From positions 1 to 48,295 of the forward strand of contig DATHJB010000175.1 in the NCBI GenBank assembly GCA_035316325.1: 48,295 nucleotides of DNA, in the 5' to 3' direction. The notes beneath the pieces were generated by a model. The model was not told the DNA's origin, did no database searches, and saw only the letters and a list, made by a program, of their open reading frames with translations. Positions 5,358 through 47,865 of the stretch are shown in pieces; the stretch's first letter is position 1, and every line of letters starts with the position of its first letter. The position numbers and the translations under genes were made by a program. The stretch is from Acidimicrobiales bacterium. GTDB taxonomy: Bacteria > Actinomycetota > Acidimicrobiia > Acidimicrobiales > VFJN01.

Positions 5358-6347
5358 ATGGCAGCTACCAAGGACTTCACGGACCTGGAGCCCCGGCTGG
5401 CCGAGCACCGCTCCGAGATCCGGGGCTACTGCTACCGGATGCTCGGCTCGTCGTTCGAGGCCGAGGACGCCGTGCAGGAGACGTTCGTGCGGGCGTGGAA
5501 GGGCTACGACCGCTTCGAGGGCCGCTCGGCGCTGCGGTCCTGGCTCTACCGGATCGCCACCAACGTGTGCCTCGACATGCTCAACGGCCGCAACCGGCGG
5601 GCCCGTCCCGTCGACATGGGGCCGAGGTCGACGGTCGACGACCACGACCTGCGGACGCTGCCCGAGGAGTCGTGGGTCGAGCCGATCCCCGACGGCGCCG
5701 TCACCCCCGTGGGCGCCGACCCGGCCGACCTGGCCCTGTCGCGGGAGAGCATCCGGCTGGCGTTCGTCGCCGCCCTGCAGCACCTGCCACCCCGGCAGCG
5801 GGCGGTGCTGATCCTGCGCGAGGTCCTGCGCTGGAAGGCCGACGAGGTGGCCGACCTGCTGGGCACGTCGGTGCCCTCGGTCAACAGCGCCCTGCAGCGG
5901 GCCCGGGCGACGCTGGCGTCCCGCGACCTGGGGTCGGCGTCGGAGCCGGAGCTGGCGTCGGAGGCGATGGACGACGCCCACGAGGAGCTGCTGGCCCGCT
6001 ACGTCGAGGCCTTCGAGCGCTACGACATCGAGTCGCTGGTGACGCTGCTCCACGACGACGCGGTGCAGTCGATGCCGCCCTTCGCCCTGTGGCTGCAGGG
6101 GTCCGACGAGATCGCCGGGTGGATGCTGGGCCCGGGCAGCGAGTGCCGGGGTTCCCGGCTGGTGTCGACGGCGGCCAACGGCTGCCCGGCGTTCGGCCAG
6201 TACCGGCCGGCCGAGTCGGGATCGGGCCACGACGCCTGGGCGCTGCAGGTGCTCGACGTGGTCGACGGGCGCATCGCCGCCATCAACTCCTTCCTCGACA
6301 CCGCCCGCATGTTCCCGCTCTTCGATCTGCCGTTGCATCTCGACTGA
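5358..6347 (+). CDS. ECF sigma factor with C-terminal SnoaL-like domain (SigG/SigJ-like)
   Basis: A 329-residue extracytoplasmic-function sigma factor. Region 2 is at about residues 10-80 (EIRGYCYRMLGSSFEAEDAVQETFVRAW), region 4 at about 130-190 (LPPRQRAVLILREVLRWKADEVADLLGTSVPSVNSALQRAR), and the last 120 residues are a SnoaL/NTF2-like domain. In the families with this tail (ECF41/ECF56 types, mycobacterial SigG and SigJ) the tail replaces a separate anti-sigma factor and modulates activity from within the protein. No anti-sigma gene is adjacent, consistent with that; the STAS gene is convergent. The ATG at 5358 begins just upstream of the conserved region. It shares an intergenic region with the ArsR-type operon. 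Confidence 0.92.
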   Translation: MAATKDFTDLEPRLAEHRSEIRGYCYRMLGSSFEAEDAVQETFVRAWKGYDRFEGRSALRSWLYRIATNVCLDMLNGRNRRARPVDMGPRSTVDDHDLRTLPEESWVEPIPDGAVTPVGADPADLALSRESIRLAFVAALQHLPPRQRAVLILREVLRWKADEVADLLGTSVPSVNSALQRARATLASRDLGSASEPELASEAMDDAHEELLARYVEAFERYDIESLVTLLHDDAVQSMPPFALWLQGSDEIAGWMLGPGSECRGSRLVSTAANGCPAFGQYRPAESGSGHDAWALQVLDVVDGRIAAINSFLDTARMFPLFDLPLHLD

Positions 6348-6710
6348 TCACTCCTCCGGGTCGCGGCCGTGGCCGTCTTGGTCGCGGCCGTGGCCGTCCA
6401 GGCCGACGACGTGGGCCAGGCCCATGAAGGTGAGCAGGCGGCGCAGGTCGTGGGAGGCGTGGCGCAGCTGCACGGGCCGACCGAGGCGGCGGGCGGTGAG
6501 TGCGACGCGGGCGATCACGTCGACGGTCATGGCGTCGGCGGCGGCGAGGGCGCTGACGTCGCACACGACCAGGCAGGAGTCGCCGCCTTCCAGCAGGAGG
6601 CGCAGCTCGGAGCAGCAGCCGCTGACGTCGTCCGCCGTGGCCCGCCCGATGACGGCGACCACCACCGTCCCGGGCGCGTCGTGAGGCCGGTGCACACGGA
6701 TCGCTGCCAT
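6348..6710 (-). CDS. STAS-domain protein, anti-sigma-factor-antagonist-like
   Basis: A 120-residue stand-alone STAS domain. The order beta strand (TVVVAVIGRAT), helix, strand CLVVCDVSAL, helix, and strand VQLRHAS matches the fold. The phosphoacceptor serine of SpoIIAA-type proteins should sit in a DLS motif; here the corresponding stretch is CDVSALAAADAMTVDVIA, where a serine follows DV. The C-terminus contains two copies of a Gly-His-Gly-Arg-Asp element (GHGRDQDGHGRDPEE). It is convergent with, and immediately abuts, the sigma-factor stop with no gap. Partner kinase or phosphatase genes are not in view. Confidence 0.75.
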   Translation of the reverse strand: MAAIRVHRPHDAPGTVVVAVIGRATADDVSGCCSELRLLLEGGDSCLVVCDVSALAAADAMTVDVIARVALTARRLGRPVQLRHASHDLRRLLTFMGLAHVVGLDGHGRDQDGHGRDPEE

Positions 6711-6758
6711 TGCCGAGGAAGACCGGCCCGAGCCCCGAAACTCATCGTTCTGCGGGGA

Positions 6759-7127
6759 TCACGGCAACGCCGCGACGGCGTCGACCTCCACGAGCTGGTC
6801 CGGATACCCGAGGACGCTCACGCCCAGCAGCGTCGACGGCGGCCGCGCCGGTGCGAGCCCCGCCGCCACGACGTCCCACACGGCGACGAGGTCGTCCCGT
6901 CCCCCGACCACGTACACGGTCGTCCGCACGATGTCCCCGACGCCGGCCCCGTGCTCCTCCAGCACCGCCAGCAGGTTCTCCACCACCCGCCTCGCCTGCC
7001 CGGTGTGATCTCCAGGCGAGACGACCACGCCTTCCTCGTCCAACGGACTGGCCCCCGCCGTGAACACCAGGGCCCCCTCCCGCACAACCCGCGCGTACTC
7101 GTACGCCACCCCGGGATACAGCCCCAT
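6759..7127 (-). CDS. RidA family protein (YjgF/YER057c/UK114)
   Basis: A 122-residue RidA-family protein. These trimeric proteins hydrolyse reactive enamines/imines made by PLP enzymes, or act in specialised catabolic steps. The family core is visible: VREGALVFTAGASPLDEEG near residue 15, QARRVVENLLAVLEEHGAGVGDIVRTTVYV in the middle and ARPPSTLLGVSVLGYPDQLVEVDAVAAL at the end. The conserved arginine that anchors the carboxylate in RidA (in R-x-CVE contexts) is not evident, so it may belong to another YjgF subgroup. The ATG at 7127 has AGGAG seven bases upstream. Confidence 0.88.
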   Translation of the reverse strand: MGLYPGVAYEYARVVREGALVFTAGASPLDEEGVVVSPGDHTGQARRVVENLLAVLEEHGAGVGDIVRTTVYVVGGRDDLVAVWDVVAAGLAPARPPSTLLGVSVLGYPDQLVEVDAVAALP

Positions 7128-7150
7128 CCACTCGCTCCTGTTCGTCGCCG

Positions 7151-7513
7151 TCAGATCGGCAGCCGGCGCACCCGCGCCCGCTCCTGGGTGAGGACGACGA
7201 TGGCACCGGCGGCGATGTCGGCCTCGAGCTGGTCGAGCGCCGCGACGAGCAGGGCCGCCTGCTCGTCGGGTCGATGAGGCGCCCGCCGGAGCAGGATGAC
7301 GCTCGGTGCCGGAAGTCGCCCTATTGCGAGGAGCTCGCCGAAGTCGGTGTCGACCGACACGACGCACCGGTCCGCCTCCCGTGCCACCGCCATGATGTCG
7401 CTGTCGGCAGCGCCCAGGAGCTTGAGGTCGCCGACGTGGATCGCGTCGTGACCTGCGTCTTCGAGCAGGCGAGCGACCCTCGCCGACAGGGACTCGTCGA
7501 TGAGGAGCTTCAA
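7151..7513 (-). CDS. DUF5615 PIN-like toxin-type protein
   Basis: A 120-residue DUF5615 protein. The family has a PIN-like fold and is usually the downstream partner of a DUF433 gene, forming a VapBC-like toxin-antitoxin module. The acidic residues of the active centre are visible: D6 and E7 in LLIDESLS, and the Asp pair in VVSVDTDFGEL. It starts inside the stop of the DUF433 gene (ATGA overlap at 7510-7513). RNase activity is inferred from the family and has been little tested. Confidence 0.88.
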   Translation of the reverse strand: MKLLIDESLSARVARLLEDAGHDAIHVGDLKLLGAADSDIMAVAREADRCVVSVDTDFGELLAIGRLPAPSVILLRRAPHRPDEQAALLVAALDQLEADIAAGAIVVLTQERARVRRLPI

Positions 7514-7740
7514 CCGGCGGGACGCAGGGGGATCTCGCGCTCGTCGACCACGGCGGCGGCGTAGCGGAGCGCGTCTCGGATGTCTTCGAGGGTGAGCTGG
7601 GGGAACTCGGCGAGGATCTCGTCGGTCCCCATGCCTTCGGCGACCATCCCCACGACCGTGGCCACCGGGATGCGGGTGCCGCGGATGCAGGGCACCCCAC
7701 CCATGATCCGGTGATCGACGGAGATCCGCTCGAAGGTCAC
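7510..7740 (-). CDS. DUF433 antitoxin-type protein
   Basis: A 76-residue DUF433 protein, with the family hallmarks IMGGVPCIRGTRIPVATVVGMVAEG followed by the helix EILAEFPQLTLEDIRDAL. These small helix-turn-helix-like proteins pair with DUF5615 toxins and resemble Xre/MerR-type antitoxins. The gene overlaps its partner by four bases and overlaps the upstream DUF5519 gene by four bases as well, so three proteins are made from one coupled message. Confidence 0.9.
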   Translation of the reverse strand: MTFERISVDHRIMGGVPCIRGTRIPVATVVGMVAEGMGTDEILAEFPQLTLEDIRDALRYAAAVVDEREIPLRPAG

Positions 7741-8069
7741 CTCACCATTTTAGGTGGCCGGTGGGCGGCGACGCGGTCGTAGTTCAGGCGGACGAGGGCG
7801 ATGCAGGTGTCGGCGTCGGTGTCGGAGGTCAGGTAGAGGGTGGTCCAGCCCGAGTCGGGATGGAGGTGGTGGGGGCCGGTGCGGCCGGCGGCGACGAGCT
7901 CGTCGCGGAGCGGGCGGGGGAACGGGATGTCGGCCTGGTGGTCGCCGTGGACATGGCCGAGCATCCGTCCCCGCAGGTAGAACTCCGTCTCACCGAAGCG
8001 GCCGATCTTGGTGCTGATGCCCGGCCAGCTGGTCACCGTGTCGACGATCCGGTCGCCTCGTCCGCTCAT
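7737..8069 (-). CDS. DUF5519 (luciferase-family) protein
   Basis: A 110-residue protein that looks like the small luciferase-family/DUF5519 group. It has the typical TEFYLRGRMLGHVHGDHQADIPFPRPLRDELVAAGR stretch with three histidines and the end ...HLHPDSGWTTLYL. The family name is historic and no light-producing chemistry should be assumed. It is the first gene of the coupled trio with DUF433 and DUF5615, overlapping DUF433 by four bases. Whether it belongs functionally to the toxin-antitoxin module is unknown. Confidence 0.75.
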   Translation of the reverse strand: MSGRGDRIVDTVTSWPGISTKIGRFGETEFYLRGRMLGHVHGDHQADIPFPRPLRDELVAAGRTGPHHLHPDSGWTTLYLTSDTDADTCIALVRLNYDRVAAHRPPKMVR

Positions 8070-8095
8070 CGGGTCACGCTACCGGCCCCCGGATG

Positions 8096-8515
8096 TCAGC
8101 GGCCGGGAGCTCGGCTGCGGACCTCCTGGAGGAGCCAGCCGTTGCCGTCGGGGTCGCTGAAGGCGGCGAACGTGCCGTAGTCGCGGTGCTCGGGGTCGAC
8201 CCCGGGCGTCTGGCCCTCGGGCCCGAAGTGGAACGGCTCGCTCACCTCGATGCCCTCGTCGACCAGCCCCTGGCGGGCCTTCTCGATGTCGGTGACCACC
8301 AGGTGCAGACCCTGCGCCGACCCGGGTGCCGACGGGGTCAGCCCCTTGCCGATGCTGATCGAGCACTCCGACCCCGGTGGCGTCAGCTGCACCACACGGA
8401 AGTCCTCGCCTGCCTGGTGGTCGACGTCCACCTTGAAGCCGGCGGTCTCGTAGAAGGCCTTGGCGCGGTCGACGTCGGTCACGGGCAGCACGATGAGCTC
8501 GAGCTTCAGGTCCAT
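8096..8515 (-). CDS. VOC-family (glyoxalase/bleomycin-resistance fold) protein
   Basis: A 139-residue vicinal-oxygen-chelate protein. The two beta-alpha-beta-beta-beta modules are seen: LELIVLPVTDVDRAKAFYETAGFKVD at the start, and LHLVVTDIEKARQGLVDEGIEV after residue 75. It ends with FSDPDGNGWLLQEV, the usual metal-ligand region. The ATG at 8515 was chosen over a longer reading frame because it has a GAAAGGA ribosome site eight bases upstream. It diverges from the SnoaL gene. The substrate is unknown. Confidence 0.88.
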   Translation of the reverse strand: MDLKLELIVLPVTDVDRAKAFYETAGFKVDVDHQAGEDFRVVQLTPPGSECSISIGKGLTPSAPGSAQGLHLVVTDIEKARQGLVDEGIEVSEPFHFGPEGQTPGVDPEHRDYGTFAAFSDPDGNGWLLQEVRSRAPGR

Positions 8516-8569
8516 GATCAGGTTCCTTTCATCGGGTGTCTCTGTGTGCAACGTCGGCGCCCGCGACAA

Positions 8570-8589
8570 CTCATCGGTGGATCGATGAG
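8570..8589. promoter_or_regulatory. Inverted repeat in divergent VOC/SnoaL promoter region
   Basis: Between the divergent VOC and SnoaL genes there is a perfect 7-base inverted repeat, CTCATCG/CGATGAG, with a 6-base spacer. It is flanked by an outer GTGCAAC ... GTTGCA pair. The arrangement suggests an operator serving one or both genes; the cognate regulator is not identified. Confidence 0.45.
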
Positions 8590-8633
8590 CCGCGGATTGT
8601 TGCACCGGCGACAGCGGGGGTAGTCAGAGGGCG

Positions 8634-8984
8634 ATGCCTGACACCGATGCCAAGAAGGTCGCGACCGCCTGCCTGGAGGCCTGGACCAGCGGCGACTTCG
8701 CCACCGCCCGATCGCTGATGCACGACGACATCACGTTCACCGGACCGCTCGGCGTCACCACAGGAGCCGACGCCTACATCGAGGGCGTGCAGGGCTTCGC
8801 CGCCATGGTCGACCGGGTCGACATCCACGAGGTGATCGCCGAGGGGGACGACGTGTGCGTGCAGTACGACCTGGTCGCCGGGGCGGCCGGGGCGATGCCG
8901 ACGGTCGGCTGGTACGAGGTGCACGACGGGCTGATCCGGTCGGTCCGGGCCTTCTTCGACCCCCGCCCGATGCTGTCCCCGTAG
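8634..8984 (+). CDS. SnoaL-like / NTF2-fold protein
   Basis: A 116-residue cone-shaped NTF2/SnoaL-like domain: an N-terminal helix (ATACLEAWTSGDFATARSLMHDDITFTG), a middle helix (GADAYIEGVQGFAAMVDRVDIHEVIAEGDDVCVQYDL) and a final strand with the pattern DGLIRSVRAFFDPRPML. Members are isomerases, cyclases or ligand binders; specificity is not readable. It is divergent from the VOC gene and ends 53 bases before the convergent dehydrogenase. Confidence 0.85.
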   Translation: MPDTDAKKVATACLEAWTSGDFATARSLMHDDITFTGPLGVTTGADAYIEGVQGFAAMVDRVDIHEVIAEGDDVCVQYDLVAGAAGAMPTVGWYEVHDGLIRSVRAFFDPRPMLSP

Positions 8985-9014
8985 CCCTCCGGCAGCCCTG
9001 CCCACTCCCCGCTC

Positions 9015-9049
9015 AGGTCGGGTCAGGTCAGGTCGGGTCAGGTCGGGTC
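9015..9049. repeat. Short tandem repeat at the 3' end of the dehydrogenase gene
   Basis: Three copies of the 10-base unit AGGTCGGGTC with an extra half unit (AGGTC) after the first copy. The array runs over the stop codon at 9038-9040, so the last two codons and the trailer are repeat-derived. It is prone to slippage and may be variable between strains. Confidence 0.8.
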
Positions 9050-9892
9050 GGCGAGGCGGGACAGGACGGTCTTCAGCGGGAGCGAGGCGTCGTCCTTGTC
9101 GTCGTGCCAGCGGAACAGGATGGCGGCGGCGGCCAGCGCCAGGTCGCGGGGCAGCTCCTCGGCCTCGAGGGCGTCGGCCACCTCGTGGAGCTCCGGCGTC
9201 CAGCGCCAGGCCTGGGCGGCGACCTCCGGCAGCTGCCCCGGCTCGGCCAGCGGCGACCGGGGGCTCAGCCGGGCCTCGGCGATCAGCGGCCGGGTGACGC
9301 CGTAGCGGGCCGCGTACGCCAGCGCCACGGCGGCCAGCACCGCGGTGGTCTTCTGGTAGCTGGAGTGCGCCATCTTGAGGGCGCTGGCGCTGCCGATCCC
9401 GCCGTCGAGCCGCACCGGCTCCACCGCCGTCCCGTCGAACAGCGACACCACGGTCTCGATGTCGGCATTGCGTCCGGCCAGGTACAGGGCCGTCTTCGCC
9501 GGGCTGTCCGACTCGGGCGGCGTGCCGAAGATGGCGGCGTCGAGCACCTCGGTGCCGCCGTGCATCAGCCGCTGGGCGATGCGGATGCAGCGTTGCGGGC
9601 TGGTGGCGTTGGCCTCGACGTAGAGGCCCTGGTAGCGCAGCTGGGCCACCTGCGTCGCCACCTGGACCGCGGCCCCCGGGGGGCAGATCGCGAACACCAC
9701 CTCGGCCCGGTCGAGCAGCTCGCCCAGGTCGGCGACCTGTTCGAGCCCGCCGCGGTCGGCCCGCTGCAGGGTGGCCTGGCTGCGACCGATCGGGCACCAC
9801 AGGACGCGCGCCCCCTTGCGATGTGCCTGCGCGGCTATGGCCGCGCCCATCGCACCCGGGTGGAGCACTCCGATGGTGGTCCCCATGCTCAT
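9038..9892 (-). CDS. NAD(P)-dependent beta-hydroxyacid-dehydrogenase-like protein (DUF1932 type)
   Basis: A 284-residue protein with an N-terminal NAD(P)-binding domain of the 6-phosphogluconate/beta-hydroxyacid dehydrogenase type (TIGVLHPGAMGAAIAAQAHRKG, where the usual GxGxxG reads HPGAMGA). The middle has the substrate-site pattern LDGGIGSASALKMAHSS, in which the lysine is the expected catalytic residue. The C-terminal 110 residues look like DUF1932. Length fits the group. The start ATG at 9892 is preceded by another ATG-like codon two residues downstream (MSM), so a start at 9886 is possible. The substrate is unknown. Confidence 0.85.
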   Translation of the reverse strand: MSMGTTIGVLHPGAMGAAIAAQAHRKGARVLWCPIGRSQATLQRADRGGLEQVADLGELLDRAEVVFAICPPGAAVQVATQVAQLRYQGLYVEANATSPQRCIRIAQRLMHGGTEVLDAAIFGTPPESDSPAKTALYLAGRNADIETVVSLFDGTAVEPVRLDGGIGSASALKMAHSSYQKTTAVLAAVALAYAARYGVTRPLIAEARLSPRSPLAEPGQLPEVAAQAWRWTPELHEVADALEAEELPRDLALAAAAILFRWHDDKDDASLPLKTVLSRLADPT

Positions 9893-9954
9893 CTGCTTTC
9901 CTCGCCACCAGACTCGCGCGTCACGCTAACCACCGTCGCGGGCAGGCTGAGCCA

Positions 9955-10560
9955 ATGACCGACGCGCACGGCGGCCCCTTCACCCGCGACGACCTCGACC
10001 AGGTGATGGCGGTCGCCGTCGACGCCTGGCGCTCGGGCGCCGACCGCGACTGGTCGGTGCCCGCCGGCACGCTGGAGTGGTCCTGCACCCGCACGGCCGA
10101 CCACACGGTCGATGCGGTCCTGGCGGTGGCGCTGTTCCTGGCCTCCGGGCGACAGGACGCCTACCCCGACTGGGGCTGGGGCGAGCTGACGATGGGCGCC
10201 GCGGCGACGCCGTCCAACCTGGTGGAGGCGCTGGGCGCGGTGGGGCGGGTGCTGTCGGGCGTGGTGGCGGTGGCCGACCCCGCGGTGCGAGCGGTGATCT
10301 GGGACGGGCGGGTGACCGGGACCGGCACGCCGCCCGACTTCGCCGCCCGCGGTGCTCTCGAGGCGGTCCTCCACGCCCACGACGTCTGCGCCGGCCTCGG
10401 AGTGCCGTTCGAGCCTCCGGCCGACGTCTGCGCCCGCCTCCGTGACCACACCGGCGGCTGGCCCCACTGGTCGGCCCCCGGTTGGAGCCCGCCTCCCGTC
10501 ACCGGCGACCCCTGGTCCGACCTCCTCACCGGCTCCGGCCGCGCCCGCCCCGTCGCCTGA
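9955..10560 (+). CDS. Maleylpyruvate-isomerase N-terminal/DinB-like protein
   Basis: A 201-residue protein resembling the MDMPI_N/DinB-like four-helix group: a Trp in LEWSCTRTADHTVDAVLAVALFLASGR, then helices, and the pattern GALEAVLHAHDVCAGLGVPFEPPADVCARL typical of TIGR03086-like proteins. In mycothiol-dependent enzymes three histidines bind a metal; here the HTVDAV and LHAHDV stretches offer them. The start ATG at 9955 was chosen because the upstream frame overlaps the divergent gene. Mycothiol-linked function is family knowledge, not shown here. Confidence 0.7.
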   Translation: MTDAHGGPFTRDDLDQVMAVAVDAWRSGADRDWSVPAGTLEWSCTRTADHTVDAVLAVALFLASGRQDAYPDWGWGELTMGAAATPSNLVEALGAVGRVLSGVVAVADPAVRAVIWDGRVTGTGTPPDFAARGALEAVLHAHDVCAGLGVPFEPPADVCARLRDHTGGWPHWSAPGWSPPPVTGDPWSDLLTGSGRARPVA

Positions 10561-10717
10561 CCTCACCCCGTCCCGTCCCGGGCCGCCCGCTCGGCGTGAC
10601 CCACCCCGGGCCGTCGTTGCCCGCCCGCCCAGCGTGACCACGGGCGCTTGTTCGTGGACAGGAGATCGCCAGGTCGGCGCCATCTGCCTGCCAAGCGCAC
10701 AGCAGATCCTCTTAGGC

Positions 10718-43421: not shown

Positions 43422-43451
43422 CCACTTTCTGGCCCTTGAAGTGGCTACAAT
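43422..43451 (+). promoter_or_regulatory. vapBC promoter with operator-like inverted repeat
   Basis: TACAAT at 43446-43451 is a good -10 element only eight bases before the vapB ATG, so the message is probably leaderless. CCACTT and AAGTGG at 43422-43427 and 43439-43444 form a perfect inverted pair that covers the -35 side. Such placement suits autorepression by a VapB-VapC complex. Confidence 0.6.
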
Positions 43452-43459
43452 CGGGTGCC

Positions 43460-43717
43460 ATGGATGTGGGGATACGGGACCTGCGTGACAATCTGAGCCG
43501 CTACATCGAACGGGTGCGTGGTGGGGACGAGTTGGTGATCACCGACCGGGGATCGGCGGTGGCGAGGATCGTGCCGGTGGAGGGCGGGCGGAGGCTGGAT
43601 CGTCTGGTCGCGGAGGGCCTGGTCACACCCGCTGCGAGACGGCAGAGGACACGTCCTGCCAGGCGGGTCAAGGCGCGGGGAACTGTGAGTGACCTCGTGG
43701 CCGAGCAGCGTCGTTGA
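43460..43717 (+). CDS. vapB: Phd/YefM-like antitoxin of a VapBC module
   Basis: An 85-residue antitoxin of the prevent-host-death type. MDVGIRDLRDNLSRYIERVRGGDELVITDRGSAVARIVPVEGG is the textbook N-terminal fold. The C-terminal third is very basic (ARRQRTRPARRVKARG), and would wrap the toxin. The ATG has a -10 element only eight bases upstream and no ribosome site, so it is probably translated from a leaderless message. It overlaps the toxin gene by four bases. Confidence 0.92.
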   Translation: MDVGIRDLRDNLSRYIERVRGGDELVITDRGSAVARIVPVEGGRRLDRLVAEGLVTPAARRQRTRPARRVKARGTVSDLVAEQRR

Positions 43718-44139
43718 TCTGCTACTTCGACACGTCGGCTCTGATCCCGTTGGTGGTCGAGGAGGCGGGAAGCGGTGTCGCCGGTCGTCTGTGGGACGAG
43801 GCCGATCATGTCGTGTCCTCACGGCTGGCCTACGCGGAGGCGCGTGCCGCGTTGGCGCAGGCGCACCGGACCGACCGGATCGATGCCGTCGGCCTGCGTC
43901 GGGCGGTTGCCGATCTCGAGGTCCTGGTCGGAGACCTGGACCTGGTCGAGGTCGGGGCGGACGTGGTGCACCGTGCAGGTGAGCTGGCGGAGCGGTTGGC
44001 ACTGAGGGGCTACGACGCGGTCCACCTCGGCTCAGCGGAGTCAGTCGCCGATCCCGATCTCGTGCTGGTGGCCGGTGACCGCCAGCTGCTGCGTGCCGCG
44101 GGCGAACTGCAGATCGCCATCGCCGACGTCAACCACTGA
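43714..44139 (+). CDS. vapC: PIN-domain RNase toxin VapC
   Basis: A 141-residue PIN-domain toxin. The acidic active site is complete: D6 in MICYFDTSALIPL, E42 in LAYAEARAAL, D101 in GYDAVHL and D122 in AGDRQLL. VapC toxins cleave tRNA or rRNA. The start is a TTG that overlaps the antitoxin stop. Its 3' end runs over the end of the convergent broken SWIM gene by 11 bases. Confidence 0.92.
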   Translation: MICYFDTSALIPLVVEEAGSGVAGRLWDEADHVVSSRLAYAEARAALAQAHRTDRIDAVGLRRAVADLEVLVGDLDLVEVGADVVHRAGELAERLALRGYDAVHLGSAESVADPDLVLVAGDRQLLRAAGELQIAIADVNH

Positions 44140-44700
44140 CAGGGAGTCGGGTGGCGTCGCTGTCACCGGCGACACCCAACGCGACGTAGGCCGGTCGCAG
44201 CAGCTCGATCAATGCTCGCCCGCGGATGGTTCCGGTGGGTGGGGGCTGGTCGAGCAGCGAGGTGCTGGGGGTGGTCGCCGGGCTGCTGGCCGGGAGGGCG
44301 CCCTGCAGGGTGAAGAACGAGTCCAGGCTGGCCTCCAGAGGTGGGGCCGCCTCGGCAGCGGGGGTTCGGCGGTCCGGGCGGCCCCGACGTTGGCGAGCAG
44401 GTCGTCGCGCTCGCGTCCTCGCCACGCCAGGATGGTGAACAGGTCGTCGTCGAACGCTTCGTCCAGGAGGTAGACACGGCTGCGATGTGCTTGCAGGGCA
44501 CCTCGTGGTCCGGGCACGGAGCAGTCCATCGACAGCTCGGCGGCCGACCGGGGGGAACAGCGACAAGCCTTCATCGGTGAACACCGCTTCGATGTCCTCG
44601 AGCATCTCGCCGGCCAGCAGTCGGGCCGTGTACCAGGCGTCGTCGGCGAGGGCGCGCTCCCGCCGGGACGACGAGCGCCGGGCGAACGGTCTGCCGGCGA
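44129..44700 (-). pseudogene. SWIM zinc-finger protein, destroyed by three frameshifts
   Basis: Reading three frames in turn recovers a SWIM protein. The first frame gives FARRSSSRRERALADDAWYT then LLAGEMLEDIEAVFTDEGLSLFPP. The second gives the finger itself, C-x-W-T-A-P-C-P-D-x-E-x-PCKHIAAV. The third gives YLLDEAFDDDLFTILAWRGRERDDLLANVGA. The first frame then returns with PPLEASLDSFFTLQGALPASS to the stop at 44129. Three single-base indels and a missing N-terminal half (usually about 100 residues more) make it non-functional. SWIM genes normally lie next to SNF2-type helicase genes; none is here. Confidence 0.85.
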
Positions 44701-44816
44701 CCGGCTGTCCCGGCTTCGGTCACCAGCGGGCATGTGGCTGCAAGGCCAAGCAGCCGCGGTGCACCTCACCGGAGCACGACCACTGGGTCGTCCCGCCATG
44801 ATTTGCTATTACTGCG
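44701..44816. other. Gene-free spacer, junction of the island's unknown gene
   Basis: The 115 bases between the broken SWIM gene and the promoter of the 604-residue gene hold no supported frame. Toward the right the composition shifts from typical high GC to AT-rich, at about 44800. The shift may be the left border of an acquired segment, but no direct repeat or integration site is evident. Confidence 0.4.
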
Positions 44817-44858: not shown

Positions 44859-46673
44859 ATGGCGGAATCACGGACGGATCTACCCGTCCTCAACGCGGCC
44901 CACTTGGCGCCGTACATTTCATTGCAGATCGTGAAGTGCAACGGCGGTGACCGAGCCAGGGCACTACCTGTCATCAAGTCAAGGCTCATGGGCCTCGCCT
45001 CGAAGGCACGAGGAAATCACAGCCGTTCCGTCGTCGCCGACGGCGTCGACATCGTCACCTTGGAAGAGGGAAATCCCCCCGACGAGGTCGAGGCCTTCTC
45101 GTACGTCCACCGCAGACCTGCCTCCTGGTGGCACGGACCCGAAGACGACGACACAGCACCACCAGAGCAGTCCACGGAGCTGATCGTTCTCATTCGGCGA
45201 GGCGACTATGTCGCCATCTCGGGGACCGAGTTCCGCAGGCAGATCGAGGCCTGGATACGGAAGGACCTGGCACCGTTCCGGCTCCTGCCAGAGTGGGTCC
45301 TTCAGCAAGCATTTCTGGCTGGCCGGACCAAGGGTCTCTGGCTTGAGGGAGTCCACCATCGCTCATCGGTGAAGCCGGACACGAAGACAACGACCGGCAT
45401 CGACCTGCGCGACACGTTGTCGCAGCAGGACAGCACCTACGCCTTGAACGCGGGACTCGCCGAGCTGGCTGACAGTCCCGACCGCGTGGCGCTGACAGGT
45501 AGCGCAGGCACGACGCCAAGGAAGTCAGTCGTCTGGAACAAGCAGGCCGGCTCCTTCACCGCGTTTCTTCAAGCATGCGTCGAGGTACTCGACCTCATAG
45601 TCGAGACCGAAGAGACCGGCCGGGACGAGGCAGTGTTCGGCCAGCTGGCGGAGAGCGTCGATGATCTCAGTGGCGTTCGCGGCGCCTACGAGGTGATAGT
45701 GCCCGTCGCCGGTCTCCTGCTGGATCCGTCGACGGCGGAGGACCAACAGCTGGTGACGCTCGCTTCGAGCATCACCAGCGTCACCGGGTCCGACAGCCCG
45801 AACTGCACAGTGGGCTTGGGTCTCAACGGCAACGAAGCAGGCCGAGCCAGGATCAACGTGCAGGAGTATGACGGACGGATCAAGCTCGATGTCCGGACGG
45901 AATCGACCAGCGACCCTTCCACGTTCCCGGATCTCCGGGACCACTTGGACGATCTCGGAACTTTGCGGATCTACTACGAGTCAGGCCACGTGATCAACGG
46001 CGACCGGATCTACCAGCCTCGGATCGACGCAGTGCCTTTCAGAGGTTGGCAGTTCCGGACAATCGAACCCTTCGATATAGGCCGGGAGAAGCCGGCGACG
46101 AATGAGCCAGAAATTCACGCCCTCTGCGGCACCGACAGCGACGACTCGTTGTTCGGGTGGGTCACGAAGGCGTTCTCATCCGGAGTACTCATTTGTGACG
46201 ACGGATCGGGAGAGATGGCCGACTTCCTCCACATCGATGAGGAGCGCGTCCTCAGCCTGATCCATGTCAAGGCGGCCCACTCGAGATCCGATCGCCGCGG
46301 GATCTCGGCTTCTGCCTACGAGCTGGTCGCAGGCCAGGCTACGAAGAACCTTCTCTATCTGGACCATCAGCGGCTACTCACAAGAATTGACTCCACGCTG
46401 ACCACCGCGAGGGCAGCGTGGGCCGATGGCGAACGCTGTTCCGGCCGACAGTCGTTCCGAGATGCCCTGCTTAAGCGCCGGCCAAGCGATCCGAGCCAGG
46501 TCGTGATCGTGCAGCCGCACGTTCGGGAGTCGGTCTACACAGCGGCACTCAACTCGTTTCCTCCGACACCGGATCTGTTGCGACTCAAGCTGCTCGACAC
46601 GATTCTGAACACTGCAGCATCCTCGATCGCCGAGAACGGCGGCGCTCGGCTGCTCGTCGTCGGCAGTAACTGA
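44859..46673 (+). CDS. Unrecognised 604-residue protein with a nuclease-like motif
   Basis: I do not recognise the family. The protein has no signal peptide or membrane segment and is of mixed secondary structure. A block at about 444-500 stands out: LICDDGSGEMADFLHID (447-460), then LSLIHVKAA with H469 and K471, and then AYELVAGQATKNLLYLD with Q493. The order Asp/Glu...(H)xK...Q resembles the PD-(D/E)xK nuclease core of Mrr-type or Holliday-resolvase-type enzymes. The GC content is clearly below that of its neighbours and rare codons are more common, which suggests transfer. It stands alone between a dead SWIM gene and a dead antitoxin. A defence role is a hypothesis only. Confidence 0.6.
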   Translation: MAESRTDLPVLNAAHLAPYISLQIVKCNGGDRARALPVIKSRLMGLASKARGNHSRSVVADGVDIVTLEEGNPPDEVEAFSYVHRRPASWWHGPEDDDTAPPEQSTELIVLIRRGDYVAISGTEFRRQIEAWIRKDLAPFRLLPEWVLQQAFLAGRTKGLWLEGVHHRSSVKPDTKTTTGIDLRDTLSQQDSTYALNAGLAELADSPDRVALTGSAGTTPRKSVVWNKQAGSFTAFLQACVEVLDLIVETEETGRDEAVFGQLAESVDDLSGVRGAYEVIVPVAGLLLDPSTAEDQQLVTLASSITSVTGSDSPNCTVGLGLNGNEAGRARINVQEYDGRIKLDVRTESTSDPSTFPDLRDHLDDLGTLRIYYESGHVINGDRIYQPRIDAVPFRGWQFRTIEPFDIGREKPATNEPEIHALCGTDSDDSLFGWVTKAFSSGVLICDDGSGEMADFLHIDEERVLSLIHVKAAHSRSDRRGISASAYELVAGQATKNLLYLDHQRLLTRIDSTLTTARAAWADGERCSGRQSFRDALLKRRPSDPSQVVIVQPHVRESVYTAALNSFPPTPDLLRLKLLDTILNTAASSIAENGGARLLVVGSN

Positions 46674-46693
46674 CGATTGACGGAGTCGTCGAG

Positions 46694-46909
46694 TCGAGAT
46701 CGATCGTGCAGTTGCGGCGAGCGACACCGACGTCACCGAGTTCGTGGTCAGCAATGCCGTCGAGGCCGCGCGACGGTGTTGGCGGACCGAGATCGCTTCG
46801 ATCTGGAAGCAAGGCAGTCGACGCATGGGATGCCATCAACGCGCGGCCGGCGCGAGAGCTGTCGGGGCTTCATCGTTTGATGGATCGTCCTTCACCTTTC
46901 GTTGAATGA
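46694..46909 (+). pseudogene. Broken DUF1778 antitoxin, second copy
   Basis: The sequence is a close relative of the antitoxin at 29467-29751. It starts at the IDRAVA region (the first 30 or so codons are lost), continues as SDTDVTEFVVSNAVEAAR, suffers a one-base loss, continues VLADRDRFDLE, suffers a second loss, and ends AVDAWDAINARPARELSGLHRLMDRPSPFVE. The ATGA overlap with the toxin start at 46906 survives. The RHH DNA-binding strand is missing, so no working antitoxin is made. Confidence 0.85.
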
Positions 46910-47469
46910 CCGGGCGCTACAGCGCGCCCGAACTGCTCGCCGGTCACCACGAGCTCGATGGCTTCGAATGCCAGTCCTCGGAGCAGACCGATTGGCTGCG
47001 GCGCCATGCCCGTCAGTCGGCGAGTACAGGAACGACGAGGGTATTCGTCGTCGCCCAGGCCGAGAGCCCTGTCGTGGTGGCGTACTACGGCTGGTGCATG
47101 GCGCAGCTCTCCACGATCGCGGCTCCCGCTCGGCTCCCTCGAGGTGCCGGTCGCTATCCCCAGCCTGTGGCGCTGCTGGCCCGTCTCGGTGTCGACGTCC
47201 GTCACGAGGGCCAGGGTCTGGGTGTCGGCCTGCTTCAAGTCGTGTTCGCCCGCCTCGTTGGGCTGTCAGAGGACATCGGCTGTCGGGGCCTGCTCGTCCA
47301 CGCGGAGTCTCCTGAGGCCAGGGAGTTCTACCTCCACCTGCTTCCCGAGTTCGAGGAGAGCCCGACCGATCCGCTCCATCTCGTTCTGCTGATGAAGGAC
47401 ATCCGCCGGACGGTGGGCCGACAACCGTTGTGGAGCTACTCGGCGCCTTTCATCATCCGATGCCAGTAG
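46906..47469 (+). CDS. GNAT toxin (TacT/AtaT-like), orphan second copy
   Basis: A 187-residue GNAT protein, about 80 percent identical to the first copy at 29748-30266 by eye. The acetyl-CoA loop reads HEGQGLGVGLLQVVF instead of HEGRGLGAGLLQDVF, and the catalytic region REFYLHLLPEFEESPTDPLHLVLLMKDIRRT is kept. The C-terminus differs: after RRT it runs GRQPLWSYSAPFIIRCQ, because the original stop has been lost, and it overlaps the convergent HNH gene by 34 bases. Its own antitoxin is broken, so either it is inactive, or is restrained by the antitoxin made at 29.5 kb. Confidence 0.85.
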   Translation: MTGRYSAPELLAGHHELDGFECQSSEQTDWLRRHARQSASTGTTRVFVVAQAESPVVVAYYGWCMAQLSTIAAPARLPRGAGRYPQPVALLARLGVDVRHEGQGLGVGLLQVVFARLVGLSEDIGCRGLLVHAESPEAREFYLHLLPEFEESPTDPLHLVLLMKDIRRTVGRQPLWSYSAPFIIRCQ

Positions 47470-47865
47470 TCGTGGCAGTCGGGGCACAGCCATGCGGTGG
47501 GCCACATCTCAGCTTCGTCGCCGCCGAAGATGGCTCGAGGTGCGAAGTGATGCAGCTCGGTCCCGAAGGCTCCGCAGCGAGCGCAAGGCGGCCGGCTGGT
47601 TCGTTCGTCCAGCACGATCGGAAGTCCGTCGGCGGAACGTTCGCCGAGCCACTGGCCCGGGCTCGACGGCGTAGCCGCATTCGGCGCAGCCTCGATACAG
47701 ATGCCGAGAGCCGTTCGCGAAGACTTGGACAATCTCGACTGGGGCTCGGGTGTGCTGGCAGCTCGTCTGGGACTCGCGGATCGCCTGCATCTCTGCAGCC
47801 CGGGCGCGAAGGCGTGCGAGACGCTCGGGTAGTCGAGACGAACCTGTGCCGCGCGGTGTAGCCAT
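47436..47865 (-). pseudogene. Frameshifted HNH-type nuclease gene
   Basis: Two frames join to make a plausible 143-residue protein. The first starts MATPRGTGSSRLPERLARLRARAAEM, with a C-x2-C zinc pair at YRGCAECGYAVEPG. After a one-base gain in a GC run it continues GQWLGERSADGLPIVLDE, then CARCGAFGTELHHFAPRAIFG and CPDCHDYWHRMMKGAE. The two CxxC pairs, HH and the closing CHxxWH resemble an HNH nuclease core. It could be a sequencing error rather than a true pseudogene. It is convergent with the orphan GNAT gene. Confidence 0.6.

Follow-up and report, generated by a model that had tools for sequence, protein, structure and literature searches.

A candidate stand-alone defence protein of an Acidimicrobiales bacterium, predicted to combine an RdgC-like fold with a PD-(D/E)xK-like nuclease domain

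The DNA analysed here (the window) is a stretch of 48 295 nucleotides from an Acidimicrobiales bacterium, contig DATHJB010000175.1. An intact open reading frame with an ATG start occupies positions 44859–46673 of the forward strand and codes for a protein of 604 amino acids, as the preliminary description of this DNA had reported. The frame is a gene and not a chance reading, since 37 full-length relatives, together with plasmid copies, align with the protein from end to end. Its GC content is 62.1 per cent (64, 47 and 76 per cent for GC1, GC2 and GC3) against 71.5 per cent for the window, and about one of 465 stretches of the same size has a lower value; the gene is thus as poor in GC as had been claimed, which suggests that it was gained recently. 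Scans for promoters and terminators returned nothing above chance.

The surroundings had been described as toxin–antitoxin and decayed nuclease-type genes, which is correct in part. There is a Phd/YefM antitoxin and PIN toxin pair on the forward strand (43436–44139, both above the Pfam cut-offs) and a possible HNH remnant (47436–47732, below the cut-off). The element at 44129–44799 on the reverse strand appears to be SWIM-like and not a nuclease: its overlapping frames hold CKHIAAV and YLLDEAFDDDLFTILAWRGRERDDLL and have the look of a frameshifted SWIM zinc-finger protein (weak Pfam SWIM match, E = 0.48). Within positions 46677–47469 of the forward strand, a GNAT-type frame resembling TacT toxins (46906–47469, below the Pfam cut-off) is preceded by a possible broken frame of a DUF1778-like antitoxin, for which no Pfam match was obtained. 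Beside the gene, the window contains no recognised defence system or conserved neighbour, and toxin–antitoxin and decayed genes are found instead.

Searches of Pfam, NCBIfam and PHROG assigned the 604-residue protein to no family even at E = 10, apart from a meaningless PHROG match (E = 0.47), and a sequence search of the PDB gave no family either. The earlier statement that no family could be named therefore stands for Pfam, NCBIfam and PHROG. It does not extend to the PADLOC candidate PDC-S71 (PDLC05077), whose model matches residues 428–502 (E = 2e-12), or to a group of SF2 helicase fusions discussed below. The Pfam models Mrr_cat and Hjc did not match the protein at E = 10, a result with which a distant relation is compatible.

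A tblastn search of plasmids retrieved 17 records, nine of which cover at least 80 per cent of the query with 24–30 per cent identity. No relative was detected in genome contigs with the single protein as query; when the alignment of these plasmid relatives (A1) was used against GTDB genomes, 61 loci were found in Actinomycetota, Pseudomonadota, Planctomycetota, Acidobacteriota, Verrucomicrobiota and other phyla. The phage and viral collections searched contain no relative. Relatives are scattered over plasmids and chromosomes, and the full-length ones are only 23–37 per cent identical to the window protein. The alignment A2 comprises 38 full-length proteins, and in the tree the window protein lies within an actinobacterial clade of 13 members (support 100/100). 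A survey of 41 genomes from the same family and order gave one other match, a partial copy of 312 amino acids restricted to the nuclease part, and the gene is therefore sporadic. That copy (L104, 7356–9944, genome G263 of the same order) adjoins a DNA methyltransferase and a gene resembling MvaI/BcnI-type restriction enzymes. A 1161-residue frame at locus L023, considered as an N-terminal fusion, was rejected because the added stretch has the look of a spurious frame in the high-GC DNA upstream.

The AlphaFold model of the full protein, built from 38 sequences, has a pLDDT of 90 and a pTM of 0.85. From the N-terminus, the protein (44859–46673) consists of a region predicted to resemble the RdgC clamp fold (residues 16–255, positions 44904–45623), a middle alpha/beta region with weak and scattered structure matches and no assigned fold (residues 256–400, positions 45624–46058) and a C-terminal PD-(D/E)xK-like nuclease domain (residues 401–604, positions 46059–46670), all on the forward strand. 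The core of this last domain follows the order alpha-beta-beta-beta-alpha-beta (helix 431–438, strands 443–446, 456–459 and 465–470, helix 484–501, strand 546–556). In the VIA-align comparison, seven of the 12 matches with Z of at least 5 fall on residues ~401–604, and all seven are PD-(D/E)xK enzymes. They include FokI (Z = 7.4, 3.1 Å over 129 residues), EndoMS (6.5), Nt.BspD6I (6.0), SduA of Shedu (5.9) and NucS (5.6). Every fold match of the protein has a Z below 8, so that the weight of the assignment rests on the agreement of the matches, the order of the motifs and the invariance of the residues. Taken together, these make residues ~401–604 a probable restriction-endonuclease-like domain, for which DNA cleavage would be the expected activity. 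A PD-(D/E)xK-like fold had been proposed from the letters alone, with a likeness to Mrr and Holliday-junction resolvases; the model bears out the fold, and the likeness is not specifically to Mrr or Holliday-type enzymes. Angiogenin/RNase A matches in the Foldseek search (probability about 0.1) were dismissed as noise.

Conservation in the family is highest in the predicted catalytic block of residues 447–497 (positions 46197–46349, forward strand), DDGSGEMADF...HVK...GQATKN, with the motif D-x3-E-x2-D-x13-H-x-K-x21-Q-x2-K. The residues singled out earlier are all there, D447, E452 and K471 in CDDGSGE-M-ADFLHI...LIHVK and GQATKN at 492–497. Loss of the named Asp, Glu and Lys among homologues would have counted against the proposal; E452 and K471 are present in all 55 proteins compared and D447 in 53, as is K496. 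D448, E452, D455, H469, K471 and Q493 are invariant (55/55) across three sub-lineages, namely the stand-alone proteins, the SF2-helicase fusions (L065–L076) and the true PDC-S71 members L101 and L102. Of the columns of A2, 25 are invariant, and 19 of these fall beyond residue 400.

The motif II Asp (D455) and the motif III Lys (K471) are thus found in every sequence. The literal Asp or Glu two residues before the Lys is absent and is replaced by H469 in 55/55, giving HxK for (D/E)xK; we therefore use the label PD-(D/E)xK-like and do not claim full membership of the superfamily. The fold and the order of conserved residues are those of FokI, EndoMS/NucS, Nt.BspD6I and Shedu SduA, from which the window protein differs by the HxK and by an additional invariant residue, E452, three positions before D455. 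The universal histidine in place of the motif III acid could mark a lost catalytic residue, in which case the domain would be a dead nuclease fold that only binds DNA. We regard this as very improbable: dead copies normally lose their catalytic residues, whereas E452, D455, H469, K471 and Q493 are strictly invariant over three lineages, as under selection on catalysis.

Two sister families share this domain. Residues 11–604 of the family align with residues 415–967 of a group of SF2 helicases (hhalign probability 99.9, E = 2e-31, 528 columns). These helicases (L065–L077) are ~970–1100 amino acids long and carry N-terminal ResIII/DEAD and, mostly, Helicase_C domains; they have the C-terminal half and its invariant residues in common with the window protein, which differs in having no helicase motor. 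From this collinearity with the post-helicase half, the window protein is the helicase-less form. In the second family, PDC-S71, the true members score E = 1e-139 to 8e-222 over positions 3–589 of the PADLOC model. The match of the window protein covers positions 409–481 of 589 and does not span most of the model, so that it falls outside full PDC-S71 membership; all 10 family members scanned match the model at the nuclease block. PDC-S71 proteins are also single proteins of ~600 amino acids with the same C-terminal block (DD..E.AD..HxK..Q..KN). Homology is confined to the C-terminal ~180 residues (hhalign 96 per cent, E = 3e-9), the shared nuclease domain, and the N-terminal parts align poorly. 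Judging from these profile comparisons, PDC-S71 is an uncharacterised sister family. PADLOC candidates of this kind were found by guilt-by-embedding (PMC12988326), and our literature search found no published mechanism for PDC-S71.

The N-terminal region (residues 16–255) resembles, in its predicted structure, the fold of RdgC, Iml3 and CENP-L/N, a DNA clamp. In RdgC, this fold comprises base, centre and tip domains, which build a dimeric ring. The likeness, as well as the helicase relation, had gone unnoticed in the preliminary description. W90, W161, K176, G180 and D191 are invariant in this region (alignments A2 and A4). Against whole RdgC chains, VIA-align gave Z values of 6.5–6.9 over 194–199 residues at 4.5 Å, followed by Iml3 and CENP-L. 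With residues 1–404 folded alone, the best matches were again RdgC (Z = 6.7 and 6.6), then CENP-N, Chl4 and Iml3. Foldseek with the full model placed RdgC at the top (E = 6.6e-4), and eight viral structures also matched with E no higher than 2e-4, most of them annotated as RdgC or recombination-associated protein. When only the N-terminal part was submitted, Foldseek returned no significant match, and RdgC did not appear among the top 50. Homology to RdgC by sequence profile was rejected (hhalign probability 0.4 against 22 RdgC sequences; no match to Pfam PF04381), and no sequence relation between RdgC and the window protein is detectable. Because the part alone did not retrieve RdgC and the profiles do not align, we consider the resemblance to be structural and moderately supported, and it is possibly a case of analogy, not homology. 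The fold group returned agrees with one described in 2024, in which RexA, RdgC, IML3 and CHL4 form a single group of DNA-binding folds; RexA of lambda, a phage-exclusion protein, is thereby placed with the RdgC type (PMC11077077). The predicted fold of residues 16–255 is thus like that of both RdgC (PF04381) and lambda RexA. Neither RdgC nor RexA is known to have a nuclease domain.

The survey of homologue neighbourhoods proposed in the preliminary description was carried out. Relatives lie near Gabija (GajB, E about 0), a CBASS CD-NTase with a SAVED-HNH effector and JetD of Wadjet; further neighbours are type I restriction–modification systems, LmuB of Lamassu and an Abi_C protein. This proximity is an association, for which no enrichment factor is given. 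Since relatives are found among defence genes in many bacteria, the protein makes a good candidate antiviral nuclease encoded by a single gene. A nuclease of repair or recombination, carried on mobile elements and handling intermediates of replication or recombination in the manner of RdgC with no direct role in defence, would account for the RdgC-like fold and for the many plasmid copies near repABC or integrases, and RdgC is itself also carried by phages. We nevertheless judge it improbable, given the recurrent proximity to defence systems across unrelated phyla, the kinship with the defence candidate PDC-S71 and the sporadic distribution.

The commonest Pfam family among close neighbours is a Tle1-like phospholipase (PF09994, DUF2235). 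In 12 loci (L037 and L060 being near copies) its gene precedes the family gene on the same strand, and in two it is on the opposite strand; the gaps to the nuclease gene are mostly below 170 bp, and an insertion sequence intervenes in L012. On the tree, the DUF2235 label requires four changes, whereas shuffled labels need 10.1 on average, and the pairing is therefore clustered, yet it has been gained or lost more than once. A patatin gene stands before the family gene at L052, and another is separated by 5 bp from the helicase form that follows it at L065. Around the latter (6310–10564), a ThiF-like E1 lies upstream and a JAB-like protein downstream, so that this helicase form is found beside lipase and ubiquitin-like genes. 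In L037, L042 and L060 (Rhodobacterales and relatives) the genes form a compact composite island in the order Gabija pair, DUF2235, clamp-nuclease, CD-NTase and SAVED-HNH effector. Our literature search returned nothing on DUF2235 with CBASS. In two actinobacteria (L026, 5782–9905; L028, 4988–9885), a UPF1-like helicase (AAA_11/AAA_12) and an unnamed protein of ~410 amino acids immediately precede the family gene; this may be a two-gene defence module that has not been described.

These neighbourhoods bear on the main rival explanation, an activated suicide effector that stays silent until a second messenger or a partner is present and then destroys host and phage DNA together. For proteins of the proteobacterial branch, CBASS or the phospholipase module next to them would supply the trigger. 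The position downstream of DUF2235 in 12 loci, often near a CD-NTase and SAVED effector, the repeated gain or loss of the phospholipase association and the patatin gene adjacent to a helicase form all speak for it. The 13-member actinobacterial clade of the window protein has no phospholipase partner, and the window yielded no conserved neighbour. The explanation fits the proteobacterial branch better than this clade, and for the window protein we consider it unlikely, if less so than a role confined to repair.

We give somewhat better than even chances to a stand-alone, DNA-cutting defence effector, loaded as a clamp and armed with a PD-(D/E)xK-like nuclease. The N-terminal RdgC/RexA/Iml3-like part would dimerise into a clamp or ring around DNA, with no strict sequence preference. 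The C-terminal domain would act as a metal-dependent nuclease with an E/D/HxK/Q site (E452, D455, H469, K471 and Q493) and cut the DNA held by the clamp. The target may be DNA opened or exposed by the replication or recombination of phages or plasmids, and host DNA would be spared. The protein probably acts on such exposed DNA and does not translocate, because it is the motor-less sister of the SF2 helicase-clamp-nuclease proteins. Such a clamp-nuclease would be used against incoming DNA. The analysis itself establishes the order of the domains, the invariant residues, the collinearity with helicases and the defence genes near relatives; binding and cleavage of DNA, dimer formation, phage as the target and the means of sparing host DNA are inferred.

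Each part of this design has known counterparts (nuclease effectors, RdgC/RexA clamps, SF2 helicase-nucleases), and our literature search found no description of an RdgC-nuclease fusion or of a clamp-nuclease combination. More tentatively, and with the balance somewhat against it, the family may represent an undescribed class of defence: an RdgC/RexA-type clamp with an HxK nuclease, with or without an SF2 motor, that has repeatedly and independently acquired phospholipase partners (DUF2235/Tle1-like and patatin) in the company of CBASS and Gabija, for a two-hit attack by DNA cutting and membrane damage.

If the clamp-nuclease reading is true, it would provide a mechanism for PDC-S71 and its sisters, a defence candidate that so far has a catalogue number only. 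A single DNA-clamp fold would then connect phage exclusion by RexA, the control of recombination by RdgC and restriction-type nucleases. Comparison of the versions with and without a helicase offers a natural experiment: it could show whether a motor is required for a clamp nuclease to discriminate between phage and host DNA.
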